Source: Mycolicibacterium porcinum
GTDB lineage: Bacteria; Actinomycetota; Actinomycetes; Mycobacteriales; Mycobacteriaceae
Reading direction: 5' to 3'
Length of the DNA: 64,000 nt
Assembly (NCBI GenBank): GCA_002086835.1
Contig: MVIG01000007.1
Location: 1 to 64,000, forward strand
Shown: one piece after another, positions 24,589 to 28,744 of the stretch
Layout of the letters: each line of letters begins with the position of its first letter
Numbering within the stretch: the first letter of the stretch is position 1
Made by a program: the position numbers and the translations under genes
Notes under the pieces: model-generated
Databases searched by the model: none
Told to the model about the DNA's origin: nothing
The model's input: only the letters and a program-made list of their open reading frames with translations

Positions 24589-25638
<1,050 letters not shown>

Positions 25639-25657: not shown

Positions 25658-26170
25658 TTACTTCACTGCGCTGATACCACGGGGTCCGCGCGAGACCGAC
25701 ACCATGCCGGACTGTGCGATCTCGCGGATACCGTACGGCTCCAGGACCCGCAGCAGGGCCTCCAGCTTCTCCGCGGTGCCCGTCGCCTCGACCGTCAGGG
25801 ACTCGGTCGAGACATCAACAACCTTGGCGCGGAACAGGTTCACCGCTTCGATGACCTGGCCCCGGTTGGACGCGTCGGCACGCACCTTGATCAGCGCGAG
25901 CTCGCGGGAGACCGAGTTGTCGTCCTCCTGCTCGACGATCTTGATCACGTTGATCAGCTTGTTGAGCTGCTTGGTGATCTGCTCCAGCGGTGATTCCTCG
26001 ACGCTGACCACGATCGTCATCCGGGACAGGTGCTTCTGCTCGGTGGCACCCACGGCCAGGGACTGGATGTTGTAGCCGCGGCGAGAGAACAGCGTGGCTA
26101 CCCGGGCGAGCACACCGGGTTTGTCCTCGACCAGCACCGACAGGGTGTGGGTGGGGGTGGTGTTGCTCAT
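25658..26170 (-). CDS. ilvN: Acetolactate synthase small (regulatory) subunit
   Basis: Regulatory subunit that gives valine feedback control to acetohydroxyacid synthase. From the ATG at 26170 it has 170 residues: an ACT domain with TLSVLVEDKPGVLARVATLFSRRGYNIQSL at about residues 7-36, and a C-terminal IlvN domain. The start overlaps the ilvB stop by one base (TGATG), which rules out the longer upstream frame. It corresponds to Rv3002c. Confidence 0.97.
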   Translation of the reverse strand: MSNTTPTHTLSVLVEDKPGVLARVATLFSRRGYNIQSLAVGATEQKHLSRMTIVVSVEESPLEQITKQLNKLINVIKIVEQEDDNSVSRELALIKVRADASNRGQVIEAVNLFRAKVVDVSTESLTVEATGTAEKLEALLRVLEPYGIREIAQSGMVSVSRGPRGISAVK

Positions 26171-28032
26171 CAGGCGTGCCCCTCTGCGTCGTTCTCGTCG
26201 AACAGCGGCCGGATGTCGCGGGCCGCCATGATCTCGTCGTTGCTGGTGCCGGCGGCGACCATCGGCCACACCTGCGCGTCGGCACCGACGATGAAGTCGA
26301 TGACCACGGGGCGGTCGTTGATGGCCCTGGCCTGGTTGATGACGTCCTCGACGTCCTCGGCCCGCTCACAGCGCAACCCGACGCAGCCCAGCGCCTCGGC
26401 CAGCTTGACGAAGTCCGGGATCCGGCGCGAGTGCGTGGACAGATCGGTCTGGCTGTAGCGCTGGTCGTAGAACAGCGTCTGCCACTGCCGCACCATGCCC
26501 AGGTTGCCGTTGTTGATCAACGCCACCTTGATCGGTGCGCCCTCGATGGCGCAGGTGGCCAGCTCCTGGTTGGTCATCTGGAAGCAGCCGTCGCCGTCGA
26601 TGGCCCACACCTCGGCCTCGGGGCGGGCAAACTTGGCACCCATGGCCGCCGGGACGGCGAAGCCCATGGTGCCGAGACCGCCCGAGTTCAGCCAGGTCTT
26701 CGGGTTCTCGTACTTGACGAACTGCGCGGCCCACATCTGGTGCTGGCCGACGCCGGCCACGTACACCGCCTCGGGTCCGGCGATCTGGCCGAGCTTCTCG
26801 ATGACGTACTCGGGGCTCAGGCTACCGTCGCTCTGCGGGCCGTAGCTCAGCGGGTAGGTCGACTTGAGCCCGGACAGATACTCCCACCAGCTGTCCAGTT
26901 TCAGTGCGGCGCTGGTGGTCCCGTCACGGCGCAGCACCTCGGTCAGATCGCTGATGACGGCCTTGACGTCGCCGACGATCGGGACGTCGGCGTGCCGGTT
27001 CTTGCCGATCTCGGCGGGGTCGATGTCGGCGTGGATCACCTTCGCCTCGGGGGCGAATGTCGACAGCTGACCGGTGACCCGGTCGTCGAAGCGAGTTCCC
27101 AGCGCGATCAGCAGATCGCTCTTCTGCAGGGCACCCACGGCGGCCACGGTCCCGTGCATGCCCGGCATCCCCAGATGCTGCGGGTGGCTGTCGGGGAACG
27201 CACCGCGGGCCATCAGGGTGGTGACGACGGGGATGCCGGTCAGCTCGGCCAGCTCGAGCAATTCGGCACTGGCCTCACCACGGATGACCCCACCACCGAC
27301 GTACAGCACCGGCTTGTGCGCCGCGGCGATCAGCTTGGCGGCCTCGCGCACCTGCCTGCTGTGCGGCTTGGTGTTCGGCTTGTAGCCGGGCAGGTCCATC
27401 TGCGGCGGCCAGGAGAAGGTGCACTGGCCCTGCAGGATGTCCTTGGGCACGTCGACGAGCACTGCGCCCGGGCGTCCCGAGCGGGCGATGTGGAAGGCCT
27501 CGGCCATCACCTGGGCGATGTCGTCACCGTTGCGCACCAGGAAGTTGTGCTTGGTGATCGGCATGGTCATGCCGGTGATGTCGGCTTCCTGGAAGGCGTC
27601 GGTGCCGATCAGGCTGCGGCCCACCTGCCCGGTGATGGCCACCACGGGGATGGAGTCCATCTGGGCGTCGGCCAGCGGCGTGATCAGGTTGGTCGCGCCG
27701 GGGCCCGAGGTGGCCATCATCACGCCGACCTTGCCGGTGGCATGGGCGTAGCCGCTGGCGGCGTGGCCGGCGCCCTGCTCGTGGCGAACCAGCACGTGGC
27801 GCAGCTTCTGCGAATCGAACAGCGGATCGTAGACGGGCAGCACGGCGCCGCCGGGGATGCCGAAGACGACGTCGACACCGAGTTCCTCCAGCGACCGGAC
27901 GACCGCCTGGGCGCCGGTCAGCTGCACCGGGGCAACCCGATTGGGCTGACCCGTTTCTGATTTGGTCTTGGCTGCGCCGTTGGCAGGCGCGGTTCCCGAC
28001 CGGGCTGGCGGTCGTGTTGTCGGTGCGCTCAC
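26170..28032 (-). CDS. ilvB: Acetolactate synthase catalytic subunit
   Basis: ThDP- and FAD-dependent acetohydroxyacid synthase, first common step of branched-chain amino-acid synthesis and target of sulfonylureas. The 620-residue protein has an N-terminal polar extension of about 35 residues. The catalytic Glu lies in [10 protein letters not shown], and the ThDP-binding motif is [29 protein letters not shown]. The GTG start has a GAGGAC ribosome-binding site. It corresponds to Rv3003c (ilvB1). Upstream is an attenuator with a branched-chain-rich leader peptide. Confidence 0.97.
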
Positions 28033-28116: not shown

Positions 28117-28150
28117 AAAAAACCCCCGTCAGCCGGTAGCTGTACGAGGG
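28117..28150 (-). terminator. ilvB attenuator terminator
   Basis: In the minus-strand RNA the arms CCCUCGU and ACGGGGG pair (one G-U) around an inner CAGC/GCUG stem, followed directly by six U residues. It lies 21 bases after the leader-peptide stop and 84 bases before the ilvB GTG, the textbook position of an attenuator. Confidence 0.88.
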
Positions 28151-28151
28151 T

Positions 28152-28208
28152 GGCGCGTCGATGCGGTTGGCTATGCCCGGCAGAGGGCCAGCGCGGCATC
28201 AACGCGCC
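28152..28208 (-). promoter_or_regulatory. Alternative stem and antiterminator segments of the ilvB leader
   Basis: GGCGCGUUGAUGC (complement of 28196-28208, within the leader-peptide codons for WRVDA) can pair over 13 bases with GCAUCGACGCGCC (28152-28164). The loop contains GCCGGGCAUAGC (28170-28181), which can pair, with a GCA bulge, with GCUACCGGC in the terminator (28132-28140). Stalling of a ribosome on the LLVVI codons would block the first stem and free the loop to disrupt the terminator. The pairing is seen; the mechanism is inferred. Confidence 0.7.
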
Positions 28209-28242
28209 AACCAATTACTACGAGCAATCCGGGGGTCTGCAT
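28171..28242 (-). CDS. ilvB leader peptide (branched-chain attenuator)
   Basis: A 23-codon frame, too short for usual gene calling, upstream of ilvB. It begins MQTPG and has the consecutive run LLVVI at residues 6-10, with further V, L, L later. It ends RA-TAG. A promoter is placed so that RNA starts at or within a few bases of its ATG, so it is probably translated leaderless. Position, composition and the terminator downstream identify it as the regulatory peptide for valine, leucine and isoleucine supply. Confidence 0.85.
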   Translation of the reverse strand: MQTPGLLVVIGWRVDAALALCRA

Positions 28243-28250
28243 AGCACTTG

Positions 28251-28280
28251 ACGGTAGCTGCCGTACAGGTTGAAGGTCAA
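28251..28280 (-). promoter_or_regulatory. Promoter of the ilvB leader transcript
   Basis: On the minus strand TTGACC (28280-28275) and TACCGT (28256-28251) are spaced by 18 bases and end eight bases before the leader-peptide ATG. The -35 is close to the SigA consensus; the -10 is a partial match. Confidence 0.55.
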
Positions 28281-28354
28281 ATTGCTTTACCTGCGGGCCT
28301 CGACAGGGTGGCCGGCCGGCGGGCCCGCGAATGAGGTGGTGCAAGGATGAAGCT

Positions 28355-28744
28355 GTGAGCGCACGATCGGCAACCGCCCCTGTCGTCATCCGGATTTCGC
28401 CCATGGCGCACCTGGCCGTCGGCTTTCTGACGCTCGGTCTGCTGACCCTGGTGCTGAGCAATCCCACCGTTTTCTCGGTGCTGCTGGTGATCCCGATTGC
28501 GTTGTCGGCGGCCATCATCCGGTACCGCACCACCGCCGATACCGACACTGTCACCGCGCGTTCTCTGACGCGCAGCCGCACCGTGTCGTGGGGCGACATC
28601 AAGGGATTGCGGTTCGACCGGTCATCGTGGGCGATTGCCGACCTGAACGACGGAACCGACCTGCGGCTGCCTGCCGTGACGTTCGCAACGCTGCCGTTGC
28701 TGACCGAGGTGAGCGGCGGCCGGGTACCGAATCCGTACGCCTAG
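28355..28744 (+). CDS. cfp6: PH-domain membrane protein (Cfp6-like)
   Basis: A 129-residue protein with two closely spaced hydrophobic segments at about residues 20-55 and a small bacterial pleckstrin-homology-like domain (about 60-129, strands such as RSRTVSWGDIKGLRF). It corresponds to Rv3004, the low-molecular-weight antigen Cfp6. The GTG at 28355 is preceded by AAGGA; the M. tuberculosis annotation starts later, equivalent to the Met at 28403. Its job is unknown; the location beside the ilv operon is conserved but need not be functional. Confidence 0.8.
   Translation: MSARSATAPVVIRISPMAHLAVGFLTLGLLTLVLSNPTVFSVLLVIPIALSAAIIRYRTTADTDTVTARSLTRSRTVSWGDIKGLRFDRSSWAIADLNDGTDLRLPAVTFATLPLLTEVSGGRVPNPYA

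Follow-up and report, generated by a model that had tools for sequence, protein, structure and literature searches.

The window is a stretch of 64,000 nucleotides of Mycolicibacterium porcinum DNA (contig MVIG01000007.1, positions 1 to 64,000), and the genes and leader described here lie on its minus strand. We take the open frame at 26170..28032 (-), which begins with GTG and is preceded by the Shine-Dalgarno-like AAGAGG at 28043-28038, to be ilvB, encoding the large subunit of acetohydroxyacid synthase; this is also the name given in a preliminary description of this DNA. The open frames at 25658..26170 (-), whose ATG overlaps the ilvB stop, and at 24589..25602 (-) are presumably ilvN (small subunit) and ilvC (ketol-acid reductoisomerase).

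Upstream of ilvB on the same strand, a -35 element TTGACC (28275..28280) and a -10 element TACCGT of the form TANNNT (28251..28256) are separated by 18 nt, and 8 nt lie between the -10 element and the ATG at 28242 that opens the leader peptide frame MQTPGLLVVIGWRVDAALALCRA (28171..28242, 23 codons and TAG). Codons 6-10 of this frame are the putative sensing codons TTG CTC GTA GTA ATT (LLVVI, 28213..28227). The 5' arm of a 13-bp stem (GGCGCGTTGATGC, 28196..28208) starts 4 nt past the ATT codon, and its 3' arm (GCATCGACGCGCC, 28152..28164) ends 1 nt before an intrinsic terminator hairpin of 12 bp with one bulge (28123..28150), which is followed by a tract of six U (TTTTTT, 28117..28122). An inner hairpin, GCUgGCCC...GGGCauAGC (28170..28192), covers the last codons and the stop. 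On the plus strand, an open frame at 28331-28744 diverges from the leader promoter, about 50 nt off.

With a threshold of E <= 1e-250, IlvB was matched in 122 of the 128 genus genomes searched. Two of the 122 were dropped because the contig start was too near the gene, and 120 loci were left, the window included; these loci are related, so that counts among them are not independent events. The leader-frame filter parsed 119 of the 120 loci. Locus L202 failed the peptide filter, had an in-frame leader with VPVV by eye, and was included in the 120-locus frame count. Two alignments were used, A1 (the long-peptide set, 50 distinct sequences) and A2 (the short-peptide set, 54). The peptides of A1 mostly have 20-23 codons with the inner hairpin over the stop, and those of A2 have about 15-23 codons, mostly RVGA or RVGG ends, and variable stem loops. 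At the family level, an IlvB match was found in 121 of 121 genomes drawn, and one same-family genome had a second ilvB-like match (G023:C25:806344-808116, 72% identity) with one internal TAA. Part of this draw and part of a set of 80 named contigs supplied 110 loci outside the genus. A TANNNT 5-10 nt before the start together with a terminator was found in 48 of the 110, which is an undercount because Streptomyces leaders with the peptide MRTRILVLGKRVG were missed; this peptide is identical to that of S. lividans ilvL, which was reported to be leaderless.

The promoter was kept across the 119 parsed genus leaders. TTGAC stood upstream of the -10 element in all of them, at a distance of 18 nt in 117 and 17 nt in 2, and the -10 sequence was TACCGT in 107. 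The leader start codon was ATG in 114 and GTG in 5. The distance from the -10 element to the start codon was 8 nt in 112 leaders, 7 in 5, 9 in 1 and 6 in 1, a count that is biased because the choice of start codon favoured frames having a -10 element. Conserved positions between the two were C at -8 (111/112), G at -3 (107/112) and T at -1 (109/112). The pattern TTTGAC-N18-CTACCGT-N8-ATG occurred once in the 6.96-Mb genome to which the window belongs and in 307 of 395 genus genomes, with no occurrence in the reversed controls; the exact string was absent from 88 genomes. For G292 and for G366, two matches to this pattern were found within one genome. A simple consensus scan picked up neither promoter nor terminator at the leader, because the -10 element fits 3 of the 6 consensus bases and a bulge interrupts the terminator stem.

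AGGA, GGAG and GAGG were absent from the stretch 4-11 nt upstream of the leader start in all 119 genus leaders, and 4 had one of them at 2-3 nt. The start of ilvB itself was recognised in 103 loci, and in 96 of them a Shine-Dalgarno-like 4-mer lay within 18 nt, a search distance that differs from the 4-11 nt used for the leader. According to the available sections of PMC8079986, a transcript is leaderless if transcription starts 0-3 nt from the start codon, and 88.7% of the S. lividans spacers are 5-7 nt, with a range of 4-9. Because the AUG here stands 8 nt after the -10 element, compared with the usual 5-7 nt in S. lividans, the 5' end of the RNA may be the conserved G at -3; an RNA starting at this G or at the A of AUG would in either case be leaderless by the 0-3 nt rule. 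The near-fixed spacing, the lack of a Shine-Dalgarno sequence and the frame kept from that start make leaderless initiation the best reading of the sequence, as the preliminary description had held. We believe that the leader peptide is very probably initiated in this way, with the RNA start placed by its spacing from the -10 element.

In a frame-blind measure, the interval between the promoter-anchored start and GTAGT took 8 distinct values in the 120 loci, and all 120 were multiples of 3. The distance from GTAGT to the terminator arm fell into all three frame classes (38, 30 and 52 loci). That the former distance is always a multiple of 3 strongly indicates translation of the frame that opens at this start. 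At the two sensing valine positions (28221-28216 in the window), 118 of 119 genus leaders had GTA GTA. GTA makes up 2 of the 218 valine codons (approximately 1%) in seven window genes, and the remaining valines in the same leaders were mainly GTT (122/151). Among the loci outside the genus, CTC GTA was also found in leaders of Nocardia, Rhodococcus, Saccharothrix and Streptomyces, and the leaders of Arthrobacter (L038, L043) and Brevibacterium (L064) use GTC and are without CTC GTA. A literature search found no paper that joins ilvB attenuation with the GTA codon, and we consider the near-invariant, rare GTA GTA sensing codons a somewhat fresh point. Variants of the peptide were seen within the genus. 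Seven leaders (L161, L166, L187, L189, L190, L204 and L206) form a subgroup with MDNGMLVVA[HP]CALVVA, in which the isoleucine after VV is gone and a second LVV run stands near the end. Leaders L145 and L182 carry 30 extra nt, in frame, ahead of the sensing codons, and measure 156 nt from ATG to the end of the U tract, compared with 126 in the window.

The stem region of the window folded at -39.1 kcal/mol against -24.7 (sd 3.0) for shuffled sequences, and the terminator at -17.7 against -8.4 (sd 2.5); for both, none of 200 dinucleotide shuffles was as good. The preliminary description had suggested checking the stems for covariation, and on the genus loci the 13-bp stem does covary. In A1, 94.9% of its cells were paired, and 3 pairs, with 20 cells, were changed on both sides; none of 500 shuffles was as high in paired cells, in double-change cells or in covariation score. 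Two other measures did not clearly beat the A1 shuffles, namely the double-change pairs (19/500) and the further pair types (499/500). Slid partners of the stem paired in 14-55% of the A1 cells, and the outermost pair failed in 25 of 48 sequences. RNAalifold on A2 recovered both the stem (8 pairs, of which 2 had one double change each) and the terminator (11 pairs). For the terminator, 98.9% of the A1 cells were paired and 10 of 11 pairs were invariant, so that it rests mainly on conservation; the sole varying pair covaried in 4 cells and failed in 6. The U tract consisted of 5-7 T across the 119 leaders. The inner hairpin was paired in 97.7% of the A1 cells and is without covariation support, because its changes were one-sided only.

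These results bear out much of what the preliminary description had claimed from the letters of the window, namely a promoter, read here as TTGACC, 18 nt and TACCGT, a 23-codon frame with the run LLVVI, a 13-base stem just past the sensing codons, and a strong terminator with six U before ilvB. A short frame rich in branched-chain codons, as a leader-peptide transcription attenuator requires, is present (LLVVI, with the frame kept in 120 of 120 loci), and an intrinsic terminator lies between the leader and the first gene. The same two elements upstream of ilvB, a branched-chain frame and a poly-U terminator, define the class described for Mycobacterium in the accessible text of PMC1262725. The preliminary description had stated that every part of an attenuator was there, which goes too far. 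The statement holds for the promoter, frame, stem and terminator; for the remaining part, a pairing that excludes the terminator, neither masked folding nor conservation and covariation in A1 and A2 established one.

The antiterminator had been placed at the end of the frame without naming bases, and we reconstructed it as GCCGGGCAUAGC pairing with GCUACCGGC. In A1, 72.2% of its cells were paired, no two-sided changes were found, and shuffles did equally well, so that this segment was not conserved beyond a 4-bp core, CGGG/CUCG. The core, with one G-U pair, was kept without variation in 50 of 50 long-peptide A1 leaders and is neither proved nor excluded because it is invariant. Another fragment opposite the 5' arm of the terminator, GUUG/CAGC, was present in 92% of A1 and 98% of A2. 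A pairing of GCUCGUA in the sensing codons with UACAGC in the terminator 5' arm was paired in 91.8% of A1 and had no covariation, and it is disfavoured because a ribosome positioned there would prevent it from forming; in naked RNA it does compete, with a mean terminator probability of 0.59 in class A, 0.84 in class B and 1.00 in 8 others. A 2-bp GG/CC extension at the base of the stem was invariant in 50 of 50 A1 sequences and uninformative, as slid partners scored equally. In the window itself, stem and terminator do not overlap. Ribosome-masked folding used 118 of the 119 leaders (L138 was unparsed) and left out the RNA upstream of the ribosome. The mean terminator probability was 1.00 both for a stall at the second GTA and for a ribosome at the stop, and with the ribosome stalled at the leucine codon it was 0.98-1.00. 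Occupancy of the terminator 5' arm before the 3' arm was made, for the stalled ribosome and the ribosome at the stop, was 0.22 and 0.31 in class A, 0.29 and 0.39 in class B, and 0.44 and 0.40 in 8 other leaders. Masked folding does not refute attenuation, because equilibrium folding ignores kinetics.

Leaderless short polycysteine frames are said to act as attenuators that sense cysteine in mycobacteria (work attributed to Canestrari, 2020). Such frames resemble the window leader in being leaderless, short, amino-acid sensing and mycobacterial, and differ in the amino acid, cysteine. The polycysteine system is termed translation attenuation in the available part of PMC13236596. Attenuation of ilvB in actinobacteria had been predicted before, as the preliminary description said: for Mycobacterium, ilvB leaders and terminators were predicted in 2005, and the mode of regulation was left open in the accessible text of PMC1262725. 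The word "leaderless" is absent from that paper. It also cites, in the part available, a result that counts against attenuation, namely that altering candidate codons before ilvB was without effect in S. coelicolor. Ribosome profiling found a uORF before ilvB in M. abscessus (PMC4974804). The string "ilv" is absent from the main text of PMC4633059, and "ilvb" from PMC4128351 and PMC9094748.

Among the closest systems in print is the M. tuberculosis ilvB1 attenuator, which was backed by experiment in 2026. As far as the available sections of PMC13236596 go, this leader gives an abundant terminated transcript of approximately 120 nt and has a translated frame; it is induced on IlvB1 inhibition, changing LVVI to AAAA abolishes the induction, and disruption of the terminator mitigates vulnerability. 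The same sections support a read-through response to amino-acid supply and describe the branched-chain-rich uORF as conserved among mycobacterial species. The window and M. tuberculosis ilvB1NC share the short branched-chain-rich frame with LVVI, the intrinsic terminator and the ilvBNC operon. In M. tuberculosis 126 nt separate +1 from the end of the U tract, and in the window 126 nt separate the AUG from it. The leader of the window differs in its 23 codons, its run LLVVI and its UAG stop, the published M. tuberculosis stop being UGA.

The preliminary description had called leaderless coupling the less described part, but it is in print for C. glutamicum, C. diphtheriae and S. lividans (available parts of PMC11857589, PMC5784534 and PMC8079986). 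For example, the C. glutamicum transcript starts one nt from the leader start codon (Morbach et al. 2000, quoted in PMC11857589). As told in the accessible part of PMC11857589, expression drops by 80% when the leader ATG is replaced with AGG, and the response to valine is lost after three Val-to-Ala substitutions. The C. glutamicum ilvBNC leader, the ilvB-II motif, resembles the window in its peptide with a branched-chain run, its terminator and a stem over the frame (PMC11857589, PMC10272879, in part), and differs in a 15-codon peptide, a 292-nt leader and a terminator and antiterminator that share a boundary trinucleotide. Similarly, the C. diphtheriae ilvB leader is called a leaderless transcript (PMC5784534, text available in part), and S. 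lividans ilvL is likewise reported as leaderless in the sections of PMC8079986 at hand. Both are leaderless branched-chain peptides before ilvB, as proposed for the window, with 13 codons in S. lividans and 15 in C. diphtheriae, unlike the peptide here.

In this study, we firmly believe that the leader is a ribosome-mediated transcription attenuator of ilvBNC with a very probably leaderless leader peptide, a reading that takes up the branched-chain attenuator of the preliminary description and is supported by the genus comparison. The promoter, the frame, the spacing, the covariation of the stem and the conservation of the terminator were shown in the present analysis; the codon dependence, the function of the terminator and the leaderless starts are in print for relatives, in papers available in part. 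The RNA would start 0-3 nt before the leader AUG, so the ribosome would begin at the 5' end without a Shine-Dalgarno sequence. With Leu-, Val- and Ile-tRNA in the charged state, the ribosome would get to UAG, where, with an assumed footprint of 26 nt, it would sit in the stem loop over the inner hairpin and approximately 6 nt at the start of the 3' arm; formation of the terminator would then end transcription approximately 126 nt from the AUG. When such tRNA is scarce, the ribosome would stall on CUC GUA GUA AUU; 10 of the 13 bp of the stem could then pair behind RNA polymerase, with more read-through into ilvB. We infer that the stem is what hinders the terminator.

How the stem does so admits another reading, namely that no classical antiterminator exists and the stem favoured by stalling simply abuts the terminator and hinders it sterically or kinetically. 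The stem lies 1 nt from the terminator in the window and a few nt from it in A1 and A2, masked folding yields no pairing that excludes the terminator, and the only conserved 4-bp fragments facing the terminator 5' arm from outside the terminator are CGGG/CUCG and GUUG/CAGC. However, a genuine antiterminator could be built around these two, and CGGG/CUCG in particular lowers the odds of this reading; folding also leaves out co-transcriptional kinetics. The M. tuberculosis paper depicts an antiterminator (PMC13236596, available part), the model for C. glutamicum includes a 3-nt overlap and rapid switching (PMC11857589, available part), and the 2-bp GG/CC extension would give an overlap here akin to that of C. 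glutamicum. We therefore regard an attenuator without a classical antiterminator as unlikely. The wider statement, that leaderless mycobacterial ilvB leaders terminate without a classical antiterminator through a covarying stem that is favoured at the GTA stall and abuts and hinders the terminator, seems to us slightly less likely again.

Other readings concern the start of the transcript and the nature of the signal. The same attenuator could be made on a longer transcript from an upstream start, with initiation that is not leaderless, and some relatives do have GGAGG approximately 15 nt before the leader start, within the promoter spacer. The window has none there. Because the spacing of the promoter-like element hardly varies among the 119 parsed loci, no Shine-Dalgarno-like 4-mer lies 4-11 nt upstream in 119 of 119, and leaderless starts are reported for three actinobacterial ilvB leaders (in papers available in part), we consider a longer transcript improbable. 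Studies have also shown ppGpp riboswitches upstream of ilvB in some bacteria (PMC10272879, available part), so that a riboswitch or protein-bound leader (e.g., ppGpp, T-box), instead of translation, might control the terminator. Against this, Rfam gave no match at the gathering score in the leader region and two weak matches at E <= 1 (scores of 26.3 and 12.4, with cut-offs of 90 and 39, respectively), and the leader frame and sensing codons are conserved; such control is highly improbable.

Our preferred reading thus remains the ribosome-mediated attenuator with a leaderless peptide. This kind of switch, including the absent ribosome-binding site, is already described in related bacteria, in papers available in part, and the present study contributes an example of probable leaderless attenuation that is well supported across the genus. 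It also raises two points: the GTA GTA codons are near-invariant although GTA is rare in the window genes, and no antiterminator is evident. These points are relevant to the interplay between leaderless initiation and attenuation in mycobacteria.
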